From assembly GCF_027532945.1 (NCBI RefSeq), contig NZ_JAPZTZ010000016.1, positions 62,001 through 126,000 of the forward strand: a stretch of DNA of 64,000 nucleotides, in the 5' to 3' direction. The notes under the pieces were generated by a model, which made no database searches, was not told the DNA's origin, and saw only the letters and a list, made by a program, of their open reading frames with translations. Position 1 is the first letter of the stretch. Every line of letters begins with the position of its first letter. This DNA is from Phreatobacter sp. (lineage in GTDB: Bacteria > Pseudomonadota > Alphaproteobacteria > Rhizobiales > Phreatobacteraceae). This document shows, piece after piece, positions 1,894-13,311 of this stretch. The translations under genes and the position numbers were made by a program.

Positions 1894-2904
1894 TCACGCG
1901 GCTGCGAGCCGTTCGGCATATTCGATGGCCTCGATCAGGCTCGTCTCCGAGGCGACGCCCTTGCCGGCGATGTCGAAGGCGGTCCCATGGTCGACTGAGG
2001 TGCGGATGATCGGCAGGCCGAGGGTGATGTTGACGCCCGACAGACCTTCCCATGTGCCGGTTTCGGGATTGACCTTGAAGCCCAGCAGCTTGACGGGGAT
2101 ATGGCCCTGGTCGTGATACATGGCGACCACGGCGTCGTACTGGCCGGCGCGCAGCTTGACGAAGACCGTGTCGCCGGGGACCGGGCCGACAACGTCGAGC
2201 CCATCGGCGACAGCCGCAGCGATGGTCGGCATCGAGATGTCGATGTCCTGCCGGCCGAAGAGGCCGCCTTCGCCGGCATGGGGGTTCAGCGCCGCCACTG
2301 CAATCTTCGGGCGCGCCTCGCCGAGGCGCATCATCGCGTCATTCGTGAGATCGATGACGCGGCGGATGCGCTCGGGCGTGATGCGCTTCGGCACGTCCTC
2401 CAGCGCCACATGGGTGGTGACGTGGCTGACGTTCATCGTGCCATGGGCGAGCATCATCACCGACCCGCGCACGCCCGTCAGCTCGGCGAGCAATTCGGTG
2501 TGGCCGGCATAATGATAGCCGGCAAGGTTCAGCGCCTCCTTGTTGAGCGGCGCGGTGACGAGACCCTGGATGCGCCCTGCCATGGCGAGCGCGACCGCCT
2601 TCTCGATGGCGAGATAGGCCATGCGGCCACCGGGGGCGCCCACCTCGCCGGTGACGATGGGCCCGCCGGGATCGCCCGCCTGGAGGATGGCGGCCGCCGG
2701 CCAAGTGTCGCCCTCGCGCACTTCGGGAATGGCTGCGGCGCCGAACAGTGCCTCCGCCTTGCGCAAGGCCGGCACGTCGCCGGTGACGAGAAGCTTCAGT
2801 TCGCCGGCCGCGAGGCGGGGGCTGAGCCGCTGCACGGCGCGCACGATGATCTCCGGACCGATACCGGCGGGGTCGCCCATGGTGATGGCGAGATGGGGTG
2901 TCAT
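1894..2904 (-). CDS. pdxA2: PdxA2-type 4-phospho-sugar-acid dehydrogenase
   Basis: PdxA-superfamily NAD-dependent dehydrogenase of 336 residues, the normal family length. MGDPAGIGPE is at 9-18, TAPLNKEAL at 117-125, LNPHAGEGG at 206-214 and YHDQGHIPVK at 263-272, which supply metal-binding histidines. Its ATG overlaps the stop of the DUF1537 kinase (ATGA), so the two are translationally coupled. PdxA2 paired with a DUF1537 kinase is the established arrangement for D-threonate and D-erythronate breakdown: the 4-phosphate is oxidised and decarboxylated to dihydroxyacetone phosphate. The pairing argues against a role in vitamin B6 synthesis. Confidence 0.9.
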   Translation of the reverse strand: MTPHLAITMGDPAGIGPEIIVRAVQRLSPRLAAGELKLLVTGDVPALRKAEALFGAAAIPEVREGDTWPAAAILQAGDPGGPIVTGEVGAPGGRMAYLAIEKAVALAMAGRIQGLVTAPLNKEALNLAGYHYAGHTELLAELTGVRGSVMMLAHGTMNVSHVTTHVALEDVPKRITPERIRRVIDLTNDAMMRLGEARPKIAVAALNPHAGEGGLFGRQDIDISMPTIAAAVADGLDVVGPVPGDTVFVKLRAGQYDAVVAMYHDQGHIPVKLLGFKVNPETGTWEGLSGVNITLGLPIIRTSVDHGTAFDIAGKGVASETSLIEAIEYAERLAAA

Positions 2905-4049
2905 GACGAGGACTTTCCGGCAGATGTCGGAGCGGGTGAGGCGCGCGCGGCGAGATCGGCGAAGAGGCCGGGCTCGCCAAAGGCGCCGGATTTGGAGATG
3001 ACCGCGGTGCCGCGCCAGCGCCCTTCGGTGAGGCGCGAGAGGGCGATGCCCGGCTGCAGCTCGCCGAGGACGTCGAGGCCCGTGACGCCAAGGGCGGGAA
3101 GGAGCGCGCGGAGCGTCTCGCCGCCGCTGACCAGCAGCGTGCCGGGGCGGGGCAGGGCGGCGACAAGGCTAGAGAACCGGTCGGCGATGGTGGTGCGGGC
3201 GGCCGTGCGGTCGGTGCCATTGGGCAGGTCGCAGGTGACGAAGGCGGCGCCTGAGTGTTCCATCAGTTCTTCGATTCCGCTGACATTGGCGGCGGTCCGC
3301 CACAGGTGCGCCACGGCGTCGAGCTGGGCGCTCGTGATGGCATGGTCGGTGCCGATGAGGCCAAGGAGCGGCCCCTGCCAGGCAAGGGCAGCGGGCGGCG
3401 GCGGCCGCAGCGCCCGGGCGAGCGCACGGGCAAGGCCCGCCGAGCCGACCCAGAGAACGGAGCCGGAATGAGCGAAGCCGTTTGCAACGATCCGGTCGAG
3501 ATCCTCCGGCGTCTCCGCGTCGAAGAGGCTGATGCCGTCGGTGGGCAGGTCCTCGGGGCCAAGGCGGGCCACCCGATGACCGGCGGCGGTGAGGCCGGCG
3601 CCCATGTCCTCGCCGGTCGGCGTCCAGGCCCCGCCCTGTATCCAGACCTGGCGCGCGGAGCGGGTGCGGCGGCCCTGTTCGGGGAGGGCCGGGGCGATGA
3701 TGACGTTGTCGAAACGGATTGCGGCGAGGATGGCGGCGAGTTCGGCGCAGGCATGTCCGCGCAGCAGGCTGTCGACTTTGAAGAATGACAGGCGGCCGGG
3801 AATCGGCGCCAACAGGGGGGCAGCGGCGCGCGCCGCGGCACACGCCTCGGCGGCCGAGCGCTCGCGGGTTCCGATATCGAGGACAAGCGAGCCGCTATCC
3901 TGCGCCGCGATGCCGACGCGCAGCGGCGCCACGGGGCTGGCGAAGGCGGCGGCCGTGTCGAGCGCGCCCGTCATGTCGTCGGCGATCATCCGGATCGCCT
4001 CGAAGGCGAGGCCTTGTGCGCGCCTCGGCTCGCGGGCCAGCGCCGTCAC
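2901..4049 (-). CDS. Four-carbon acid sugar kinase (DUF1537 family)
   Basis: ATP-dependent kinase, 382 residues from a GTG start. The N-terminal substrate-binding signature IADDMTGALDTA and KVDSLLRG are present, and the C-terminal nucleotide-binding half contains LLVSGGETLRALL and the ending KSGAFGE. The GTG at 4049 overlaps the SDR stop as GTGA, indicating coupling; a start at the ATG of MIADDMTG would remove residues that usually precede this motif. It is somewhat shorter than typical DtnK/OtnK proteins (about 420). The family phosphorylates D-threonate, D-erythronate, L-threonate or related acids at C4. The exact sugar acid here is unknown. Confidence 0.87.
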   Translation of the reverse strand: MTALAREPRRAQGLAFEAIRMIADDMTGALDTAAAFASPVAPLRVGIAAQDSGSLVLDIGTRERSAAEACAAARAAAPLLAPIPGRLSFFKVDSLLRGHACAELAAILAAIRFDNVIIAPALPEQGRRTRSARQVWIQGGAWTPTGEDMGAGLTAAGHRVARLGPEDLPTDGISLFDAETPEDLDRIVANGFAHSGSVLWVGSAGLARALARALRPPPPAALAWQGPLLGLIGTDHAITSAQLDAVAHLWRTAANVSGIEELMEHSGAAFVTCDLPNGTDRTAARTTIADRFSSLVAALPRPGTLLVSGGETLRALLPALGVTGLDVLGELQPGIALSRLTEGRWRGTAVISKSGAFGEPGLFADLAARASPAPTSAGKSSS

Positions 4050-4729
4050 AGCGAGGCTCCGCCGCAGATGGTGAGGACCTGGCCGGTGATGGCGTCGGCC
4101 TCCCGCGACATGAGGAAGGTCACCGCGGCGGCGACCTCGTCCGGGCGGATCAGGCGGCCCATCGGCGGCACGCGTGGCGGCACGCCGCTGCGGCCGGGAT
4201 CGCCGAGCATGGGCGTCTCGGTCGCGGCGGGTGCGACGACGTTCACGGTGATGCCGCGCGCGACCAGTTCGGCGGCCCAGGATCGCGCCATGGCGACGAG
4301 GGCTGCCTTTGTCGCGGCATACTGGCTGCGCTGCGGCGAGCCGGTCCACGTGCGGCTGCCGATTAGGACGATGCGTCCGCCGGCAGTCATGCCGGGAGCG
4401 AGGGCGCCGGCAATCTCTTCCGCCGCGGCGACGTGGAGGTCCCACATGGCGCGGCCGCGCCCGGGATCGAGCGCCTCGAGCCCGCCGGTTGCGAGGATGC
4501 CGGCGGCATGGACGAAGGCGGTGGCGGCCGGGAGTTTGGCGATGAGGTCGCGCCGGGCCACGGCATCCGAGAGGTCGCAGGTGACATGCGCATAATGCGG
4601 CGAGGGCATGGTGACGGGGCGTCGGGCGACACCCGTCACGGTCCAGCCATCAGCGAGCAGGCGCGCCGCGACCGCCGCGCCGATGCCGGAGCTGGTGCCG
4701 GTGACGAGGGCGTGGCGCGAGCCGGGCAT
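4046..4729 (-). CDS. SDR family oxidoreductase
   Basis: Classical short-chain dehydrogenase, about 227 residues from the ATG at 4729, which falls just after the aldolase stop; an upstream in-frame start at 4774 would overlap that gene. Seen are the cofactor motif TGTSSGIG, a catalytic YAATK (Tyr-x-x-x-Lys) and a C-terminal ITGQVLTICGG typical of the family. No membrane segment or signal is present. It sits between the DapA-type aldolase and the sugar-acid kinase and so probably oxidises or reduces a hydroxyl of the pathway intermediate. The substrate cannot be read from sequence. Confidence 0.85.
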   Translation of the reverse strand: MPGSRHALVTGTSSGIGAAVAARLLADGWTVTGVARRPVTMPSPHYAHVTCDLSDAVARRDLIAKLPAATAFVHAAGILATGGLEALDPGRGRAMWDLHVAAAEEIAGALAPGMTAGGRIVLIGSRTWTGSPQRSQYAATKAALVAMARSWAAELVARGITVNVVAPAATETPMLGDPGRSGVPPRVPPMGRLIRPDEVAAAVTFLMSREADAITGQVLTICGGASL

Positions 4730-4733
4730 GGGA

Positions 4734-5633
4734 TCAGGCCGTGGCTTCGGCGAAGGAGCGGGCGATCTCGGCAACCTTGGCCTCGACCTCGGCCGTCACG
4801 AGTGCCGGGCCACGGCTCGGGCCGACATCCGGCATGACGGCGCGGAGGGCACACTTGACCATGGTCGGCGGGAAGCCGTGCGCATAGAGCGTGGCGCGGA
4901 GGTCACTGAAGCGCTCCTGGTGGGCGGCGGCGGCGGCATGATCGCCCTTGGTGAAAGCCGTCCAGATGCCGTTGAGAGTCTCCGGCGCGACATTGCCGAG
5001 GCCGGAAATGCTCCCCGCCGCGCCGTTCTGAAGGCCGTGGAGCACGAGGGAATCCGGCCCGACCAGCACATCGAAATCGTCACGGCCAGCGGCGACGGCG
5101 AGGAAACCGTCGAGGCTCGCCTTCGAGCCCTCGCTATCCTTGATGCCGACGATGTTCGGATGGTCGGCGAGGCGGGCCGCCGTCTCCGGGGCGATCGTGT
5201 TCCCGGTGCGCGCGGGGATGTTGTAGAGGTAGACCGGCACGTCGAGGGCATCCGCGACGCGGCGGTAATGGCCCTCGAGCTCGCCTTGCGAGCAGGCGAT
5301 GAAGGAGGGCGTGATGGCCGAGACGGCCCTGACGCCGAGGCCCTGGATCGCCTTGCCGAGCGCGATGGTCTGGTGCGTCGAGATCTCGCCGATATGGGCG
5401 AGCACCCCGGTCATGCTCGCGGCCGCCTCGACGCAGATCTCGGCGACGCGCACCTTCTCGGCGAGGGAGAGGGTGTAGAACTCGCCATTGGTGCCGCCGC
5501 AGAAAACACCATTGCCGGCTTTTGCCTGGCGGGCCACCTGCCGGCGCAGCGCGGATTCCGCCACGGCTTCTTGCGCGTCGAAGGGCGTCACGATGGCGAC
5601 GAAGGGGCCGGTGGTCCGGGGCCGGGCGGTCAT
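4734..5633 (-). CDS. DapA/NanA-family class I aldolase (dihydrodipicolinate synthase family)
   Basis: TIM-barrel Schiff-base aldolase of 299 residues. GGTNGEF is at 46-52 (the GTTGE motif), YNIPARTG with the proton-relay tyrosine Y137, and GIKDS with the Schiff-base lysine K165. It is the first gene of the leftward operon, transcribed away from the GntR regulator. The family includes dihydrodipicolinate synthase, N-acetylneuraminate lyase and 2-keto-3-deoxy sugar-acid aldolases. Location with a sugar-acid kinase and a sialidase-like gene favours a catabolic aldolase releasing pyruvate rather than lysine biosynthesis. Confidence 0.88.
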   Translation of the reverse strand: MTARPRTTGPFVAIVTPFDAQEAVAESALRRQVARQAKAGNGVFCGGTNGEFYTLSLAEKVRVAEICVEAAASMTGVLAHIGEISTHQTIALGKAIQGLGVRAVSAITPSFIACSQGELEGHYRRVADALDVPVYLYNIPARTGNTIAPETAARLADHPNIVGIKDSEGSKASLDGFLAVAAGRDDFDVLVGPDSLVLHGLQNGAAGSISGLGNVAPETLNGIWTAFTKGDHAAAAAHQERFSDLRATLYAHGFPPTMVKCALRAVMPDVGPSRGPALVTAEVEAKVAEIARSFAEATA

Positions 5634-5948: not shown

Positions 5949-6692
5949 ATGACCGACATTCATGTCTCGCCGGAGATCGCTGCTCCCACCCCGCTGGTCG
6001 AGCGCGTTTTCTCCGGGCTTCAGGCGCGGATTACCGGCGGCGAATTCCCCGCGGGAGGTCGCCTGCCGAGTGAGAACGACCTCGCGGCGGCCTATGTCGT
6101 GTCGCGCCCGATCGTGCGGGAGGCGCTGCGCCTGCTGCGCGAGGCGGGCCTCGTCGCTTCGCGCCGCGGTTCCGGAACCTTCGTGACCTCCCAGGCGACG
6201 CCAGCGAGCCATCCCGGTGCGAATCTCGCCTTTTCTCCGGTCTCGACCATCGCCGACGTCCAGCGCTGCTATGAGTTTCGCCTCGCTCTGGAGCCGGAAC
6301 ACACCTACTGGGCGGCTTTGCGCTGGAATGCGGCAGCCCTCGGCCGCATCGCCGAGGCGCTGGAGGCAATGAAATCCGCGACGCGGGCGCAGCATCACCG
6401 CGAGGATGCCGATTTCGCCTTCCACCTCGCCATCGCCGAGGCGAGCAACAACCACTACCACGTGTCCTCCCTGCTGGCGCTGAAGGACCACATCAGCGTC
6501 GGCATGAAGATGCATGGCACGACGCTGTTCCGGCCGAAGGGGTCGCTGGAAGGCGTCTATGCCGAGCACGCGGCGATCCACGACGCCATTCGCTCCCGTG
6601 ACGCGGAGCGCGCCAGGATGCTCATGGCGCTGCACCTGAAGGGTTCGCGCGACCGCATTTTCGACGGCCACGCCCTGGATCTCGCGCTCTAG
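5949..6692 (+). CDS. GntR family regulator, FCD (FadR) subfamily
   Basis: 247 residues. The N-terminal winged helix has the GntR signature (LPSENDLAAAY, SRPIVREALRLL, GSGTFV). The C-terminal half is the all-helical FCD effector domain, including a DADFAFHLAIAEAS segment with conserved D and H, and H residues later that form the metal/ligand site (EHAAIHDAI, LHLKGS). AGGTGGGG precedes the ATG. It is divergent from the sugar-acid operon and most likely represses it, with a sugar acid or organic acid as inducer. Its stop overlaps the soxA stop tail to tail. Confidence 0.9.
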   Translation: MTDIHVSPEIAAPTPLVERVFSGLQARITGGEFPAGGRLPSENDLAAAYVVSRPIVREALRLLREAGLVASRRGSGTFVTSQATPASHPGANLAFSPVSTIADVQRCYEFRLALEPEHTYWAALRWNAAALGRIAEALEAMKSATRAQHHREDADFAFHLAIAEASNNHYHVSSLLALKDHISVGMKMHGTTLFRPKGSLEGVYAEHAAIHDAIRSRDAERARMLMALHLKGSRDRIFDGHALDLAL

Positions 6693-7441
6693 CGGCGGAT
6701 CCCGGGGCTCTCGACGGGCAGGCCCCGGGCACGGGCGGCGAGATAGAGCTCCAGCGCCACATAATCATAGGCGCCATAGGGGAGCTGCGTTGCGCGGACG
6801 CCGAGGGAACAGGCCCTGAGCCGGCGGTGCAGCGAGCCCAGCGTGTTCCATTCGAGGCGATAGGCGGGAAAGCCGGTGCCGACGCCACTGGAGATCACGT
6901 CGCCGCGCAGCCTCCGGCCGACATTCTCATCATGGCACTGGCCGCAGGAGAGGTTCAGCTGGCCCTGCCGCGTCTCGTAGAAGCGCTTGCCGGCAGCAAG
7001 GTGCTGCGCCGCCGCGCCCTCGGTCTCCACGGCCACGGGCAGCCCACGCGAGCGCAGGGCGATGGCGGCGGTGAGCGACAGCAAGGCCTCGCTCTCGTAG
7101 CCGAAGGCCGGCGCCTGCTGGTTGTCGGTTCGGCAACGCTCGATGCGAGCCTCGAGGTTCAGGAGCGCGCCGTCGGAGGCGACAGCGGGATAGCGGGCGG
7201 CGACGCCGCGCATCCCGTCGATGGGGCCGTGGCAGCCCTCGCAGGAGGGCCGTCCCGAGCGCGGCGCCTCCCGCCAGAGCGCCTCGCCGCCATCGACCCA
7301 GAGCCAGCCGGGATGGCGCGAGGGGTCGTCCTGGAGCGCGCGCAGGTCGGGCGAGAGGAAGCTTGCCGGAGCGCGGACCTCGCCGGCCGAGGCGGTTGCC
7401 CCCAGCATCAGGGTCGCTGCGAGGACGACGAGGTGCCTCAT
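6689..7441 (-). CDS. soxA: Sulfur oxidation c-type cytochrome SoxA (diheme)
   Basis: 250 residues with a Sec signal peptide (cleavage near ASAG, about 20), so periplasmic. Two heme motifs are seen, CEGCH at 67-71 and CGQCH at 166-170, plus C211 in RACSLGVRA, the position of the cysteine persulfide heme ligand of SoxA. This is the diheme form. SoxA with SoxX forms the c-type cytochrome that joins a sulfur substrate to the SoxY carrier cysteine. It is the last gene of the operon, its start overlapping the end of soxZ. The partner soxX lies upstream in the same operon; soxB is absent from the window. Confidence 0.9.
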   Translation of the reverse strand: MRHLVVLAATLMLGATASAGEVRAPASFLSPDLRALQDDPSRHPGWLWVDGGEALWREAPRSGRPSCEGCHGPIDGMRGVAARYPAVASDGALLNLEARIERCRTDNQQAPAFGYESEALLSLTAAIALRSRGLPVAVETEGAAAQHLAAGKRFYETRQGQLNLSCGQCHDENVGRRLRGDVISSGVGTGFPAYRLEWNTLGSLHRRLRACSLGVRATQLPYGAYDYVALELYLAARARGLPVESPGIRR

Positions 7442-7767
7442 GTCACCGTCAGCATTTGCCGGCGTTCATAGACCGCGCCGCCGTCCTCGAGCCATTCGAA
7501 GACCAGTTCGCCTGTGGTCGTGGCGACGGTGGTGAAGGCCACATAGGGATTGGCGGCGATGCCGGGCGACAGATCCATGTGGAGGATCTCGGCGCCGTCA
7601 TAGGTGACGCGCAGCGTGTGGATGATCTTGCGCGGCACGGGGGTGAGGCCGGGCGCGTCGATGGCACGGTCCATGGCGTGGCGCGCGAGGACACGGATTT
7701 CGATGATCTCGCCGCGGCGGGCCTCGGCGGGCATGGTGATGCGGGCGGGAATGGAGGCACTGGCCAT
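7438..7767 (-). CDS. soxZ: Thiosulfate carrier subunit SoxZ
   Basis: 109 residues, the normal length. It shows the immunoglobulin-like SoxZ fold features: ARITMPAEARRGEIIEIRVLARHAM at the start, RKIIHTLRV in the middle and a C-terminal GELVFEWLEDGG. No signal peptide is present, as expected, because SoxZ is exported bound to Tat-exported SoxY. It starts 3 bases after soxY and overlaps soxA by 4 bases. Partner of the adjacent SoxY. Confidence 0.92.
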   Translation of the reverse strand: MASASIPARITMPAEARRGEIIEIRVLARHAMDRAIDAPGLTPVPRKIIHTLRVTYDGAEILHMDLSPGIAANPYVAFTTVATTTGELVFEWLEDGGAVYERRQMLTVT

Positions 7768-7770
7768 GAG

Positions 7771-8247
7771 TCAGCCTCCGTCCACGCAGGCGCCGAGGAT
7801 GACGATGACCTCGCGGGCGCCGCGATGCACCGTGCCGCGGCTGGTTTCGGCGAGCACGACGATGGTCTGCGTCTCGGCGAGGCGGATGCGCGTGCCGACC
7901 TCAGCGCGTCCGGCCCTCGGCCCGATGCGGAAGGTCGCAACCCGCGGAAACGGGTTCTTGTCGGCAAGAACATGGATGGCGGTGACATGGTCCTCGCCGC
8001 TCATCGGACTGTCGATCCGGATCATCAGGTCGACCGAATTGCCGTTTTCCGACAGCGTCGGCATGTCCAGCGTGACGCCGGAGGCGAGCGGCGTCCGGCC
8101 GGCGAGGACGCTTCGCTCGACGGCGGCCATGGTCTCGCGATGCGCAGGCTGGGCGTCGGCCACGGTTGCGGCCGGCAGCAGGGCCGCGGCACCCGCGGCG
8201 AGGGCGGTGCGGCGTGTCAGCCCGATGCGTGGCGCGGGCAAGGTCAT
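7771..8247 (-). CDS. soxY: Sulfur carrier protein SoxY with an altered C-terminal arm
   Basis: 158 residues. A twin-arginine signal (LTRRTALAAGAA) predicts Tat export. The central domain matches SoxY (SENGNSVDLMIRIDSPM, ADKNPFPRVATF). Classical SoxY ends in GGCGG, whose cysteine carries the sulfur intermediate on a swinging arm. Here the protein ends GACVDGG: the cysteine (C154) is kept but is followed by four residues instead of two, with Ala and Val-Asp replacing glycines. That could alter partner access. It starts 4 bases after soxX and precedes soxZ. Confidence 0.88.
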   Translation of the reverse strand: MTLPAPRIGLTRRTALAAGAAALLPAATVADAQPAHRETMAAVERSVLAGRTPLASGVTLDMPTLSENGNSVDLMIRIDSPMSGEDHVTAIHVLADKNPFPRVATFRIGPRAGRAEVGTRIRLAETQTIVVLAETSRGTVHRGAREVIVILGACVDGG

Positions 8248-8251
8248 GGCG

Positions 8252-8689
8252 TCACTCCCTGAGCGTCGCGAGATAGGCCACGACGTCCTCGATCTCCTGC
8301 GCGGTCAGGACCGGCCGGCCCTGCCAGCGTGGATCGACACGCAGGAGGTCGGCGATGCGGTGATAGGCGGGCATGACCGCCTCGCGGTTGATGCGTGTCG
8401 GGTCGATGAGCCTCAGGCGCATCTGGCCCGGCGTCAGCCGCAGCGCCACGCCCGCAAGAGGCGGCCCGACCTCGCCCATGAAGGTCTCGCGCGGGTCCGG
8501 GATCGTGTGGCAGATCAGGCAATTGGCCGTCTCCCGGTTGCGGACGATGCGGGCACCGCGCCCGGCATCGCCGGCAAGGCCGTCCAGCGGCGCCGAGACG
8601 GCGTCGCCGGTAACCACGAAGGGCGCGACCTGCGCCGCCGCGGGTGCGGCGGCCAGGGCGAGCAGCAGGGCGGCGAGGGCCTGCCTCAC
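8252..8689 (-). CDS. soxX: Sulfur oxidation c-type cytochrome SoxX
   Basis: 145 residues from a GTG that overlaps the stop of the molybdenum subunit (GTGA), so translation is coupled to that gene. A Sec signal (ALLLALAAAPAAAQ) is followed by a single heme motif CLICH at 57-61; M106 in VMPAYH is the likely distal ligand. The C-terminus PVLTAQEIEDVVAYLATL is typical of SoxX. It forms the SoxXA complex with the product at 6689-7441. The tight coupling of soxX to a molybdenum hydroxylase gene is unusual. Confidence 0.88.
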   Translation of the reverse strand: MRQALAALLLALAAAPAAAQVAPFVVTGDAVSAPLDGLAGDAGRGARIVRNRETANCLICHTIPDPRETFMGEVGPPLAGVALRLTPGQMRLRLIDPTRINREAVMPAYHRIADLLRVDPRWQGRPVLTAQEIEDVVAYLATLRE

Positions 8690-10860
8690 GCGCGCCGGAG
8701 GTCCTGGTCCTTCAGCGGCACGGAGCGGATGCGCTTGCCGGTGGCGGCGAAGATGCCGTTCAGCACGGCGGGTGCTGCTACCATGATGGTCGGCTCGCCG
8801 ACACCGCCCCAGAAGCCGCCGGAGGGCATGACGATGGTCTCGACCGGCGGCATCTCGTCCATGCGCAACACGTTGTAGCTGTCGAAATTGGTCTCGACGA
8901 TCTGGCCGTCCTTCACCGTGCAGGCGCCGTAGAGCAGCGCCGACAGGCCATAGACGAAGGAGCCCTCGACCTGCATCTCGATCTGCCGCGGATTGACGGC
9001 GACGCCGCAATCAGTGGCCGCGACGATACGGTGGACCTTGAGCTTGCCCTGGGCATCGACCGAGACCTCGGCGGCGGCGGCGACATAGCTGCCGAAACCC
9101 ATCTGCTGGGCGATGCCGCGATGGACACCGGCCGGCGGCGGCTTGTCCCAGCCGATCTTCTCGGCCACCGCGTTCAGCACCGCGAGATGGCGGGGATGGT
9201 TGCCCATCAGCTTGCGGCGGAAGGCGAGGGGATCCTGGCCCGCCGCGTGGGCGAGCTCGTCGAGGAAGCACTCGAGATAGATGGCGTTCTGGTTGTGGTT
9301 CACGCCGCGCCAGAAGTGCGGAGGAACGTGGGTGTTCCGCATGGCGTGGTCGATGAGCAGATTCGGGAACGAGTAGCCGATCTGGCTGTCGTTGCCGCCG
9401 GCGTTGAGCCCCTGGAACTGCACGGGATCGCGGCCGTTCTGCAGCGCGGTGGGGAAGACATAGGACAGGATCGACTGTCCGGAGATGCGCATGTGCAGGC
9501 CGACGAGATTGCCCTGCGCGTCCAAGCCGCCCGTCATCTTGGCCATGGTGACGGGGTGATAGCGCCCCTGGACCATGTCCTCTTCGCGGGTCCACTGCGT
9601 CTTCACCGGCACGCCGGGGATCTGCTTGGCGATGTTCACCGCCTGGATGAGCCAGTCATGGGTGGTGCGCCGGCCGAAGCCGCCGCCGAGGTCGACGCGA
9701 TGCACGTCGCAAGCCGTCTGCGGCAGGCCGGCGGCCTGTGCGGTTGCGGCCAGCGCCGCCTCGCCGTTCTGGGTGGGGCACCAGACGTCGCAGCGCGTGG
9801 GGGTCCACAGCACCGTGGCGTTCATCGGCTCCATCGGCGCGTGGTTCTGGAAGGGATAGGCGTAAACCGCCTCGACCTTGCGGGCCGCACCGGCAATGGC
9901 CGCGCGGGCATCGCCATTGGTGTTGCCGACGAAGGCCTCCGTAGCATCCAGCCCCTCGCGCAGCTGCGCCTCGATGGTCTGGGAGGAGACCGCGCGGTTC
10001 GGGCCGTAATCCCAGGTGACGGGGAGGGCGTCGAGGGCTGTCTTGGCCTGCCAGAACGTGTCGGCCACCACCGCGACCGCCGTGTCGGCGACCTTCAGCA
10101 CGTGGCGCACGCCCGGCATGGACGAGACCTTCGCCGCATCGAAGGAGGCGACCTTGCCGCCGAAGACCGGGCATTCCTTCGGCACGGCGACCAGCATGCC
10201 CGGCATCTTCAGGTCGGAGCCATAGACGAGGGCTCCGGTGGTCTTGGAGGCCGTGTCGAGGCGCTTCACCGACTTGCCGATGACGGTCCAGTCCTTCGGA
10301 TCCTTCAGCGTCACGTTGGCGGGCGGCGTCAGGCGCGCGGCGGCCGCAGCCACCTGGCCATAGCGGACCGTGCGGCCCGAGGCGGCATGGGTGATGACGC
10401 TGTCCTTGGCGGTGCAGTCGGCGGCCGGGACGCCCCAGGCCTCGGCCGCGGCCTGGATCAGCATGATCCGGGCGGCAGCACCGCCGCGGCGCACATAGTC
10501 ATGGCTCTGGCGGATGCCCTGGCTGCCGGCGGTGAGGAAGGCGCCCCAGGCGCGGTTGCGGGCGAGGGACTGGCCCGGCGTCACATATTCGGTGACGATC
10601 TTCGACCAGTCGCAGTGGAGTTCCTCGGCGATCATCTGGCAGAGGCCGGTGCGCGTGCCCTGGCCCATTTCGGAGCGGGCCATGCGCAGCACCACCGTGT
10701 CATCAGGCCTGATAACGACCCAGGCATTGATCTCGGGAGTGGCGGCCGGCGCCGGCTGCTGGGCGAAAGCGCTGGTCGGCAGGTAGAAGCCGACGGTGAG
10801 GCCGGCAGCGGCCTTGAGGACGGCGCGGCGGGAGGTCGTGGTGGTCTCGATGAGCGTCAT
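8686..10860 (-). CDS. Tat-exported molybdenum hydroxylase, large subunit (IorB/aldehyde dehydrogenase type)
   Basis: 724 residues. A twin-arginine signal (SRRAVLKAAAG, about 10-20) predicts export folded with its cofactor. The xanthine-oxidase-superfamily Mo-domain features are present: MGQGTRTG at about 65, GGGFGRR at 392-398, and GVGEP with the catalytic glutamate E689 near the C-terminus. This two-part layout is the isoquinoline 1-oxidoreductase/membrane-linked aldehyde dehydrogenase branch, using molybdopterin cytosine dinucleotide. The ATG at 10860 follows the 2Fe-2S gene by 11 bases. Such enzymes usually have a separate multi-heme cytochrome c acceptor; here soxX and soxA follow instead. 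Substrate (aldehyde or N-heterocycle) is unknown. Confidence 0.9.
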   Translation of the reverse strand: MTLIETTTTSRRAVLKAAAGLTVGFYLPTSAFAQQPAPAATPEINAWVVIRPDDTVVLRMARSEMGQGTRTGLCQMIAEELHCDWSKIVTEYVTPGQSLARNRAWGAFLTAGSQGIRQSHDYVRRGGAAARIMLIQAAAEAWGVPAADCTAKDSVITHAASGRTVRYGQVAAAAARLTPPANVTLKDPKDWTVIGKSVKRLDTASKTTGALVYGSDLKMPGMLVAVPKECPVFGGKVASFDAAKVSSMPGVRHVLKVADTAVAVVADTFWQAKTALDALPVTWDYGPNRAVSSQTIEAQLREGLDATEAFVGNTNGDARAAIAGAARKVEAVYAYPFQNHAPMEPMNATVLWTPTRCDVWCPTQNGEAALAATAQAAGLPQTACDVHRVDLGGGFGRRTTHDWLIQAVNIAKQIPGVPVKTQWTREEDMVQGRYHPVTMAKMTGGLDAQGNLVGLHMRISGQSILSYVFPTALQNGRDPVQFQGLNAGGNDSQIGYSFPNLLIDHAMRNTHVPPHFWRGVNHNQNAIYLECFLDELAHAAGQDPLAFRRKLMGNHPRHLAVLNAVAEKIGWDKPPPAGVHRGIAQQMGFGSYVAAAAEVSVDAQGKLKVHRIVAATDCGVAVNPRQIEMQVEGSFVYGLSALLYGACTVKDGQIVETNFDSYNVLRMDEMPPVETIVMPSGGFWGGVGEPTIMVAAPAVLNGIFAATGKRIRSVPLKDQDLRRA

Positions 10861-10871
10861 GACGTCCTCCC

Positions 10872-11330
10872 TCAGCCCTGGCGGTTCGCGGCGGCCTGCT
10901 TGATGCCGGCGCGCACACGGTTGTAGGTGCCGCACCGGCAGATGTTGGTCATCGCATTGTCGATGTCCTCGTCCGTCGGGTTGGGCTTTTCCGCGAGGAG
11001 GGCGGCGGCGGCCATGATCATGCCGGACTGGCAATAGCCGCACTGGGGGACGTCGAGGTCGCGCCAGGCGACCTGGATCGGGTGCATGCCGTTGGGCGAC
11101 AGGCCCTCGATGGTGACGATCTTCTGGTCAGCTGAGACCGCGCTCAGCGGCATCGAGCAGGCGCGCACCGCCTGGCCGTCGATATGGACGGTGCAGGCGC
11201 CGCAGGCGGCGATGCCGCAGCCATATTTGGTGCCGGTGAGCCCGATATGGTCCCGGATCGCCCAGAGCAGCGGCGTGTCGTCCGCCGCCGTGACCTCGAC
11301 CACCTGGCCGTTGATGTTGAGTTTCGCCAC
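10872..11330 (-). CDS. Molybdenum hydroxylase 2Fe-2S subunit (IorA type)
   Basis: 152 residues from a GTG preceded by AAGGGAG. The plant-type cluster ligands are C38, C43, C46 and C58 (CGIAACGAC ... ACSM); the second cluster uses C97, C100, C131 and C133 (QCGYCQSG ... CRCGTY). It lacks a signal peptide, so it presumably crosses the membrane bound to the Tat-exported large subunit encoded next. It passes electrons from the molybdenum site to an external acceptor. First gene of the sox-containing operon. Confidence 0.92.
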
Positions 11331-11553: not shown

Positions 11554-13095
11554 TCAGACGCGCGAACTGCCGCGATAGAAGGGCTCGTGCCGGGCCGGGT
11601 CGATATAGTCGGCATAGAAGCGCCGGACATGCGGGAGCAGCACCTTGGCGAGGTGCCGCCGCTCCATCTCGTCATGCGCCAGCGCTTTCGACAGATCGTC
11701 GTGCAGCGCCTTCAGGGCCGCGTCGCGATCGACGCGGGTGAAGCGGCCATCGGCATAGAGGACCTCGCCGTCGCACATGACCGCCTTCACGCCCGAGGGC
11801 TTTGCCCGCTGCACCAGCGCGTCGACGGCCGAGGTTTCCGTGTCGAGATAGGGCCAGGCGATGGCGTCATGGTCGTGGAGGACGAGGTCGGCGGCCCGTC
11901 CGACCTCCAGCCGGCCGATCGTGTCGCCGTAGGGCGTCGTCGCCGCGCCGCCCACGGTCGCCATCCGCAGGACCTGCGGGATGGTCGGCACATCCGCCTC
12001 GTTCATGCCGGGCACCCGATGGGCGCGCAGCACCATGCGCAGTTCCTGCAGCATGTCGCGGTCATCGTTGATGCCGGCTTCGTCGATGCCGATGGCGGTG
12101 GTGAGGCCGCGGGCCTCGAAGGCGTTGAGCGGGGCGAGCCCCGAGCGCAGGCGGAAATTGGACGAGCAGTTGTGGCAGATGCAGGAGCCGGCCTCGGCTA
12201 GGCGGTCGATGTCGCGCTCGGTGAGCCAGACACCGTGGCCGATGGTGAGGCGGTCGTTCACCAGTCCGAAGCGGTCGAGATAGTCCACGGCGGTCCCGCC
12301 GCCGCGGCGATGCGCATACTCCTTCTGGTAGGCGGTCTCGACGAGATGCATGTGCATCGGGGCTTGGAAGCGCCCCGAGGTCTCGGCGAGCCGCCCGAGC
12401 GCGGCGTCGGAGCACCAGTGGAGGTTGGCCGGTGCCAGCTGGATCTTCACCCGGCGCTTCGCCTGATGGCGGGCGTGGAGGCTCTCGAACAGGCCCATCG
12501 TGTCGTCGAGGCTCATGCGGAAGCGGTCGAAATAGCGCTTCATCGGGTCCTGGAGCTCGGCCGGCAGGCTGGCGACGAAATCGGCATCGGCCTGATAGAC
12601 CAGTCGGTTCTGGTCGCGCACGCCGTAGCAATAGGAGACCCGCATCCCGATGGCCTCGTAGGCGCGGATGACCTCGCCGACCTTGGCCTCGACCTCCGGT
12701 CCCGTGCCCGGCAGCAGGCTCTGGATGTGTTGGACGGTGGTGACGCCGGAGCCGACCATCTCGAAGGCCGAGTAGAGCGTGTCGAGATAGAGGTCGAGGT
12801 TGCGGATCACCAAGCGGGTGATGAACCAGAGCTCCAGCGGCATGTCAGGCGAGCCGAGCTGCACCGGTGTCAGGCCGACATGGTGATGGGCATTGACGAA
12901 GCCGGGAAGGACCACCTCGCTGCCGGTGCCGATCACCGGCACGGTGGGATGGCGGGCGTGGAGCTCGTCGAAGGAGCCGATGGCGGTGATGACGCCGTCC
13001 TCCTGCAGGACGGCACCACCCGCGATGGTCTCGCAGGCGAAGCGGTCGGTGACGCCGGTCATGAGCGTGTGGCTGCGGACGAGCGAGGCGGGCAT
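11554..13095 (-). CDS. Metal-dependent amidohydrolase (cytosine deaminase/TrzA-like superfamily)
   Basis: 513 residues from the ATG at 13095. It shows the amidohydrolase superfamily plan: an N-terminal beta domain with DGVITAIG, then [11 protein letters not shown] with the metal-binding His-x-His (H70, H72), the barrel histidine segments MHMHLVET and IGHGVWL, and the aspartate in GIDEAG. The C-terminal [15 protein letters not shown] is typical. Superfamily members deaminate or dechlorinate purines, pyrimidines and triazines. It lies upstream of the Mo-hydroxylase operon on the same strand, separated by 223 bases, so co-transcription is possible but unproven. Substrate unknown. Confidence 0.85.
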
Positions 13096-13311
13096 GGAGG
13101 ATCCGGGGCAGGAGGGACGTGACGATGATGAGTGCTCAGCGGCGGCTGGCAAGCGCCGCGTTCACCCGATGCAAGAGCGGGGCCCGGCGGGACGCCTTCG
13201 CCCCCGCCGTTCGGGGGAGGGGCCCTGCGGCGGTCGCAGCTTCCGGGGCGCGGCGCGATGCGCCATCTTGGGCTGGCGGCCCGCCTGGGACGCCCCTGCC
13301 GTCTCTTCGGG

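Follow-up and report, generated by a model that had tools for sequence, protein, structure and literature searches.

What does a molybdenum (Mo) hydroxylase do in one operon with genes of the sulfur oxidation (Sox) system? The question is raised by a stretch of 64,000 nucleotides from a Phreatobacter sp. genome (hereafter the window), in which iorA- and iorB-like genes for an exported Mo hydroxylase are followed by soxX, soxY, soxZ and soxA. Many bacteria have the same gene set together with an altered arm on the SoxY carrier, and this suggests that the Sox carrier has a use not yet described. As a tentative answer, we favour a reading in which the Mo enzyme works for the SoxYZ carrier and probably oxidises a carrier-bound group, the electrons leaving via SoxXA.

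Operon structure

The genes iorA, iorB, soxX, soxY, soxZ and soxA form a single close-packed operon on the minus strand at 6689-11330. Its six open reading frames (ORFs), their order and their strand are as a sequence-only reading of the window had given them:

10872..11330, minus strand: iorA-like small subunit, 152 amino acids (aa), GTG start, two [2Fe-2S] sites (Fer2 and Fer2_2)
8686..10860, minus strand: iorB-like molybdopterin subunit of the xanthine oxidase family, 724 aa, twin-arginine translocation (Tat)-type signal (MoCoBD_1/MoCoBD_2)
8252..8689, minus strand: soxX, monoheme cytochrome c, GTG start (TIGR04485 71.8 bits, cut-off 61)
7771..8247, minus strand: soxY-like carrier, Tat-type signal, altered arm ...ILGACVDGG (PF13501 106 bits)
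7774..7797, minus strand: SoxY C-terminal arm LGACVDGG, with the carrier Cys154 at 7786-7788
7438..7767, minus strand: soxZ-like carrier subunit, 109 aa (PF08770 65 bits)
6689..7441, minus strand: soxA, 250 aa, two CxxCH motifs (TIGR04484 193.7 bits, cut-off 110)

The stop codon of iorA and the ATG of iorB are 11 nt apart, soxX and soxY 4 nt, and soxY and soxZ 3 nt. At the two remaining junctions the codons overlap: the GTG start of soxX with the TGA stop of iorB (GTGA at 8689-8686), which the sequence-only reading had also described, and the ATG of soxA with the TGA of soxZ (ATGA at 7441-7438).

The Mo enzyme has the marks of the IorAB type, i.e., MoCoBD domains, the catalytic Glu, two [2Fe-2S] clusters and a Tat-type signal on the Mo subunit. 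Among Protein Data Bank (PDB) entries, the 14-row IorB profile A1 matched chain C of 8gy3, the large subunit of an aldehyde dehydrogenase, best (351 bits). SoxX and SoxA of the window carry the heme and cysteine-ligand motifs, pass the curated NCBIfam cut-offs and match the PDB chains 1h31_B (70 bits) and 1h31_A (160 bits), respectively. SoxY and SoxZ do not pass theirs. SoxZ obtained 58 bits with TIGR04490 (cut-off 76); for SoxY, the top NCBIfam model was TIGR04487 with 137 bits (cut-off 172), followed by the true-SoxY model with 96 bits (cut-off 125). The fused-SoxYZ model TIGR04557 (cut-off 140) was not reached, giving 59 and 26 bits on the separate SoxY and SoxZ of the window.

Conservation of the linkage

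TIGR04487 was searched in 297 genomes of the order. At E 0.001, a threshold which also admits canonical SoxYs, 172 genomes have a match; above the cut-off there are 16. Twenty stretches were fetched, 19 of them by a SoxY match which was above the cut-off or reached profile position 146, plus L052, a further locus of the window genome. All 19 SoxY-selected stretches contain iorB and soxX-Y-Z-A in that order; two of the contigs (L036 and L049) break off within the upstream part. In addition, GTDB genomes were scanned with an IorB alignment and the best 80 of at least 572 relatives were kept, ranked by likeness to the window IorB. These loci, which include 31 Bradyrhizobium by title and some of the same genomes as the SoxY-selected loci of the order, span Phreatobacter, Roseomonas, Bradyrhizobium, Microvirga, Mesorhizobium, Enterovirga, several Burkholderiales and others. 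In two genomes assigned to the genus of the window, the IorB is identical to one from a named Phreatobacter MAG (L036 with L054, L039 with L055). Seven of the 80 end within 2.5 kb of iorB. Among the 73 with at least 2.5 kb downstream, soxX, soxY, soxZ and soxA lie on the same strand within 8 kb of iorB in 71, which contradicts the possibility, raised in the sequence-only reading, that the linkage is not conserved in other genomes. The same gene order across different families and classes also rules out chance or an annotation artefact.

The association holds from either side. IorB matches of more than 1300 bits in the 297 genomes are within 5 kb of an operon-type SoxY in 26 of 26 cases; the IorB profile was built on Sox-linked rows and the top three candidates per genome were scored, and the 1300-bit border of Sox-linked IorBs is partly a product of this profile construction. 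Conversely, all 16 SoxYs above the TIGR04487 cut-off adjoin the IorB family of the operon (the one in G274 at a contig end). The larger form of the operon, with its eight genes in a row, is present in the record of plasmid pNMS14P1 of Methylobacterium sp. NMS14P, where the carrier is named 'SoxY-related AACIE arm protein'.

The two exceptions among the 73 loci are L130, with soxY and soxZ only, and L133, with a tandem iorB array, a gene for a sulfide-dehydrogenase-like flavoprotein (FccB-like), soxX and the contig end. L130 (3477-7051) reads iorA-iorB-soxY-soxZ without soxX or soxA and comes from a metagenome-assembled genome (MAG) named Chitinophaga pinensis; its IorB falls among mostly proteobacterial rows and the bin name is doubtful. 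L133 (48-9917) has three iorB copies in tandem, the last of which shares about 50% identity with the window IorB, ahead of a small cytochrome, FccB and soxX; we regard these copies as a local amplification of the Mo enzyme. A further locus, L070 (a Rokubacteria MAG with an iorAB pair), stops 778 nt past iorB. It contains at 1834-2667 an ORF of 277 aa with GGGGC inside, adjoining oxidase-like ORFs, which looks like a SoxY-SoxZ fusion.

Carrier arm and conserved residues

GGCGG is the SoxY arm taken by SoxB and SoxCD. SoxYs of the same order encoded within about 3 kb of SoxB end in VTIGGCGG in 12 of 12 cases. The tail of the Mo-linked SoxYs is instead [LMIV][AGSP]AC[ILVT][ED] in 94 of 94 sequences reaching the stop codon (90 distinct); the SoxY of L052 and the fusion of L070 had been set aside before this count. 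The window arm GACVDGG likewise departs from the GGCGG of the Sox thiosulfate system, and its CVD fits a Cys followed by Ile, Leu, Val or Thr and an acidic residue, which is our own wording of the AACIE arm.

Residue conservation was counted with only L052 omitted. In SoxY, the arm Cys is present in 95 of 95 rows and the Tat-type RR in 94 of 95. SoxA has its CxxCH motifs in 92/93 and 93/93 rows and a ligand-type Cys in 93/93; the latter was located via alignment with 1h31 and 2c1d and aligns with the cysteine which acts as a heme ligand in SoxA. CxxCH and a downstream Met are found in all 96 SoxX rows. For the Mo enzyme, the Glu of the GVGEP motif of IorB is invariant (105/105), its Tat-type RR nearly so (103/105), and each of eight IorA cysteines is conserved in at least 100 of 101 rows. 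With invariant SoxY and SoxA cysteines and an altered arm, the cysteine chemistry looks kept while the arm departs from GGCGG.

SoxB and SoxC in genomes with the operon

The window genome (4.13 Mb, 35 contigs, 97% complete) contains no SoxB above the 550-bit cut-off. A lone 97-bit match to the SoxB model was found, and the same kind of match occurs in 10 of 14 control genomes. A split or overlooked SoxB in the window genome, of which about 3% may be missing, is thus not supported by the SoxB profile search. SoxC above the cut-off of 420 was also absent, the best match having 182 bits; SoxD was not searched for. The sister genome G132 has neither SoxB nor SoxC above the cut-offs. That soxB is not part of the operon, as the sequence-only reading had it, is supported, and neither soxB nor soxC belongs to the gene set.

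Across the order, SoxB above the cut-off was found in 97 of the 297 genomes. The sequence-only reading had named a full Sox set elsewhere as a finding that would count against it. No such set appeared in the window genome, where both enzymes are below the cut-offs, but among the 27 genomes carrying the operon 21 have SoxB and 18 have SoxC, all 18 together with SoxB. Since both are frequent elsewhere in these genomes, many carriers of the operon are likely to oxidise sulfur by means of separate Sox genes. Six of the 27, belonging to four genera by label and including the window genome, show no SoxB match above the cut-off; the operon does not need SoxB and may profit from it.

A second SoxY-SoxZ pair with the tail GGCLT is encoded in the window genome on another contig, C35, around 174353 (L052, 9020-11100). 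It adjoins genes for a small cytochrome c and for a flavoprotein similar to flavocytochrome c sulfide dehydrogenase (FccB-like). As the 19-kb stretch of L052 gave no match to SoxX or SoxA, this is another partial Sox set.

FccB-like genes

In 41 of 73 loci an FccB-like gene is present, counted by searching each locus over its whole length with two query sequences (E 1e-4). It often follows a small cytochrome c gene in the interval from iorB to soxX, and in some loci it lies past soxA. For the protein of L042, a match of 418 bits was obtained with 5n1t, the flavin subunit of a sulfide dehydrogenase; all 52 rows of FccB-like proteins share two conserved cysteines. Counted in operon genomes only, an FccB-like protein is encoded somewhere in 27 of 27, in some of them only near SoxB. 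Neither these genes nor the altered SoxY arm nor the NCBI family TIGR04487 had figured in the sequence-only reading.

Selection and inheritance

The ratio of non-synonymous to synonymous substitutions (dN/dS) was determined between the window and G132, both without SoxB. It is 0.03 for IorA and IorB, 0.06-0.10 for SoxZ, SoxA and SoxX, and 0.20 for SoxY. Together with the conserved catalytic residues, these values rule out a decaying remnant of a lost Sox cluster. Protein distances of the six proteins correlate with r 0.63-0.91 in 62 non-redundant of 89 loci (IorB-SoxY 0.84, IorB-SoxA 0.87), as is expected for genes which move together. The IorB of the Roseomonas operon L062 is 81% identical to that of the window and 65% to that of L094, a bin labelled Roseomonas. 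The four Sox proteins of L062 follow this pattern; IorA does not separate the two (68% vs 67%). The comparison suggests horizontal transfer of the whole unit.

Relatives without Sox genes

The IorB tree contains a subfamily of 109 rows, of which 96 are Sox-linked, eight are without Sox genes and five are cut off. No Sox genes were found in the fetched stretches of five IorB matches of 1090-1280 bits, nor in those of 15 lower-scoring matches. A monoheme cytochrome c ORF precedes iorA in the plasmid relatives of Sinorhizobium C101 and S. meliloti M270, and the Sox-free iorA of Methylosinus OB3b is preceded by an ORF in which CxxCH occurs eight times. By contrast, no CxxCH ORF of at least 80 aa exists in about 18 kb around the Sox-free relatives L169, L170 and L171. 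From the cytochrome genes beside Sox-free iorAB, the Mo enzyme can probably work with acceptors other than SoxXA. The same genes, in Sinorhizobium C101 and Methylosinus OB3b, fit the suggestion of the sequence-only reading that SoxXA occupy the usual cytochrome place.

The IorB branch is longer than that of Sox-linked sisters in five of six cases without Sox genes (one-sided sign test, 0.11), or in five of five (0.03) when L133 is omitted, which is an extra tandem copy inside a Sox cluster. The tree was built by a quick method and leaves several sister forks open; the branch lengths are weak evidence that the Sox partners constrain the Mo enzyme. No IorB residues marking the Sox-linked enzymes passed the filter.

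Flanking genes

Flanking proteins (199) were taken from 53 loci. Of these proteins, 121 were scanned and L062:9273-10946 was added as already known to be Iso_dh-like; 14 whole loci are omitted from the scan, namely 11 named Bradyrhizobium, L053, L130 and L133. The resulting 122 proteins contain 169 Pfam families, none in more than three proteins. Iso_dh was found in 3/122, corresponding to at most 2/121 if the added L062 protein is among the three. A histidine kinase and response regulator pair, with Pfam assignments from one member each, lies near the operon in L046, L047, L074 and L090; in Sinorhizobium C101 (L135), the genes ahead of the Sox-free iorAB likewise include those for a response regulator and an ATP-binding protein.

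The window operon itself is bordered by the following genes:

1894-5633, minus strand: PdxA-like, acid-sugar-kinase-like (SBD_N/NBD_C), short-chain dehydrogenase/reductase (SDR) and dihydrodipicolinate synthase (DHDPS)-like genes
5949-6692, plus strand: GntR-FCD regulator, convergent with soxA, the ends overlapping by 4 nt
11554-13152, minus strand: amidohydrolase, immediately upstream of the operon on the same strand

The first two entries look like sugar-acid catabolism. The nearest NCBIfam models of the amidohydrolase are of the 8-oxoguanine deaminase / TRZ-ATZ kind, all those listed being below the cut-off. Among the first fetched loci compared, both the sugar-acid-type neighbours at high identity and the amidohydrolase are shared with L041 only.

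Comparison with known systems

In classical Sox (SoxXA, SoxYZ, SoxB and SoxCD), the SoxXA and SoxYZ components are homologous to those of the operon, with motifs kept. SoxCD is likewise a Mo enzyme next to a Sox carrier. The differences are that the window genome is without SoxB and SoxC above the cut-offs, that the arm reads GACVDGG instead of GGCGG, and that the Mo enzyme of the operon is of the xanthine oxidase family, whereas SoxC belongs to the sulfite oxidase family. The sox operon of green sulfur bacteria reads soxJXYZA, then soxK-soxB-soxW. In common with the larger form of the present operon, it has soxX, Y, Z and A after the gene for an FccB-like flavoprotein; the present operon differs in having iorAB ahead of these genes and in having no soxB.

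IorAB-type Mo hydroxylases, to which isoquinoline 1-oxidoreductase and the aldehyde dehydrogenase 8gy3 belong, have the same composition of a Mo subunit and a subunit with two [2Fe-2S] clusters, and are Tat-exported. The enzyme of acetic acid bacteria has a cytochrome subunit; in the operon, Sox carrier genes follow iorB and replace another cytochrome subunit.

The carrier family is already named by NCBI (TIGR04487, 'SoxY-related AACIE arm protein'); the name covers the protein, not a pathway. TIGR04487 is the top model for the window SoxY, and its members above the cut-off adjoin this IorB family. The window SoxY differs in staying under the cut-off and in its GACVDGG tail. A second family, the quinoprotein dehydrogenase-associated carrier TIGR04557 (SoxYZ-S2/S4 in PMC11237559), also represents a SoxYZ-type carrier tied to a periplasmic oxidoreductase and not to thiosulfate oxidation. 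However, that system has a SoxY-SoxZ fusion, SoxH and pyrroloquinoline quinone (PQQ)-dependent enzymes, whereas the operon has separate SoxY and SoxZ, SoxXA and a Mo enzyme. PMC11237559 discusses the SoxYZ fusions found next to PQQ-dependent enzymes as genes of carbon metabolism, PMC11582611 mentions them for Hyphomicrobium, and PMC12997753 lists SoxYZ-like carriers beside PQQ enzymes. No description of a Mo hydroxylase with a SoxXYZA operon was found among the matches listed in the open-licence literature.

In Bradyrhizobium diazoefficiens, thiosulfate oxidation is reported to depend on just one of two soxY homologues, soxY1 of locus I (PMC5748708). The B. diazoefficiens genome G143, of another strain than that study, contains three SoxY-family genes: one with GGCGG on the SoxB contig, a Mo-linked one with AACTEEMN and one resembling a SoxYZ fusion. 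Besides the GGCGG gene, the Mo-linked one is the only SoxY of G143 that stands alone, and soxY2 is probably this gene.

Interpretation

Whereas the anatomy of the operon is firm, the chemistry is proposed from sequence. The operon would be a dedicated periplasmic oxidation module of an exported IorAB-type hydroxylase and a specialised Sox carrier. SoxXA would couple the arm cysteine of SoxY to a group containing sulfur, be it an organic thiol, sulfide or thiosulfate, and IorAB would take the place of SoxCD in the classical cycle and oxidise the tethered group. Electrons from both steps would reach the respiratory chain via the [2Fe-2S] subunit, the SoxXA hemes and, in loci which encode it, the small cytochrome. 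FccAB-like proteins, where encoded, would re-oxidise sulfide or persulfide that stays on the carrier or is set free from it. Should the cleavage of sulfate by SoxB be unnecessary, the end product may be an oxidised organic compound instead of sulfate. Most economically, SoxYZ would serve the Mo enzyme, and SoxXA would load the carrier, take the electrons or both.

We favour this reading, with the reserve stated at the outset, because of the linkage (71/73 loci, 26/26 IorBs and 16/16 SoxYs), the altered arm in all 94 carriers and the retained catalytic residues; further grounds are the FccB-like genes (41/73), dN/dS of 0.03-0.20, the IorB branches (5/6), L130 and the finding on soxY1 of B. diazoefficiens (PMC5748708). 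The keeping of SoxYZ without SoxXA in L130 favours a carrier role over SoxXA as a mere acceptor.

Several observations weigh against it. L130 is a single MAG contig and could be misassembled. The substrates of known IorB-type enzymes are free aldehydes and N-heterocycles, and the same Mo enzyme occurs without nearby Sox genes in several lineages, so that the carrier is not generally needed. Recurrent flanking families, each named from one member, belong to transport and organic metabolism (major facilitator superfamily, 10/53 loci; isocitrate/isopropylmalate-dehydrogenase-like, 9/53), and TauE (3/122 proteins) is the sole sulfur-related one among the 25 Pfam families listed. SoxB above the cut-off is enriched in operon genomes (21/27 vs 76/270 others; Fisher's exact test, p 6e-7, which is overstated since the genomes compared are related), and where encoded it is possible that SoxB is used in trans.

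Among the rival explanations, SoxXA could do no more than accept electrons from an ordinary periplasmic Mo hydroxylase acting on a free aldehyde or N-heterocycle, with SoxYZ as a passenger or assembly helper. The cytochromes beside iorAB in the Sox-free relatives of Sinorhizobium and Methylosinus, the position of SoxXA as sole cytochromes encoded in the window operon, the transport and organic-metabolism genes in the flanks and the aldehyde dehydrogenase as top solved match of IorB all agree with this. We nevertheless consider it unlikely: SoxYZ is as strictly kept as SoxXA (all four in 71/73), the SoxY cysteine is invariant in an arm of conserved new form, L130 has SoxYZ without SoxXA, and L169, L170 and L171 show that the enzyme family also occurs with no CxxCH ORF nearby. 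A protective role, in which the Sox genes clear sulfide, thiosulfate or similar compounds which harm the Mo enzyme or accumulate from its substrate, is decidedly less probable. It would suit the frequent FccB-like genes, and protection has been proposed for a SoxYZ carrier beside methanol dehydrogenase (PMC11237559); however, close relatives of the Mo enzyme manage without Sox genes nearby, the operon has no SoxB to complete the removal, and SoxB is encoded elsewhere in 21 of the 27 genomes.

It is improbable that the operon is an accessory branch of ordinary thiosulfate oxidation via SoxB and SoxCD encoded elsewhere. The frequency of SoxB, with the overstated p value given above, and of SoxC (18/27) in operon genomes fits such a branch; the six genomes in four genera without SoxB, the window's included, and the departure from GGCGG in 94 of 94 arms do not, nor does soxY2 of B. 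diazoefficiens, dispensable for thiosulfate oxidation according to PMC5748708, if it is the Mo-linked gene as we suppose. The poorest chance is given to a periplasmic sulfur relay, in which SoxYZ gives the Mo enzyme sulfur, e.g., to restore the catalytic sulfido ligand after export. The conserved cysteines of SoxA, SoxY and FccB would be compatible with it. In enzymes of the xanthine oxidase family, however, the sulfido ligand is inserted in the cytoplasm, prior to Tat export, and members of this enzyme family are kept where no Sox genes lie nearby. The SoxYZ-like carriers beside PQQ enzymes (PMC12997753) make a maintenance role for periplasmic oxidoreductases conceivable.

Implications

The reading in which the Mo enzyme acts on the carrier can be extended, still more tentatively, to a Sox carrier cycle of a third kind, in which an enzyme of the xanthine oxidase family would act on a substrate tethered to the arm cysteine, loaded by SoxXA and processed without SoxB; the substrates would be organosulfur compounds or organics captured by a thiol, and the gene set would have spread horizontally in Alpha- and Betaproteobacteria. 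If the carrier does present a substrate to the Mo hydroxylase, this would be new chemistry for the Sox system. Reading soxXYZA as thiosulfate oxidation wherever it is found can be wrong, because the same genes occur in this SoxB-free operon, e.g., in Bradyrhizobium and Roseomonas. For B. diazoefficiens, a second soxY, probably the Mo-linked one, is already on record without a thiosulfate phenotype.

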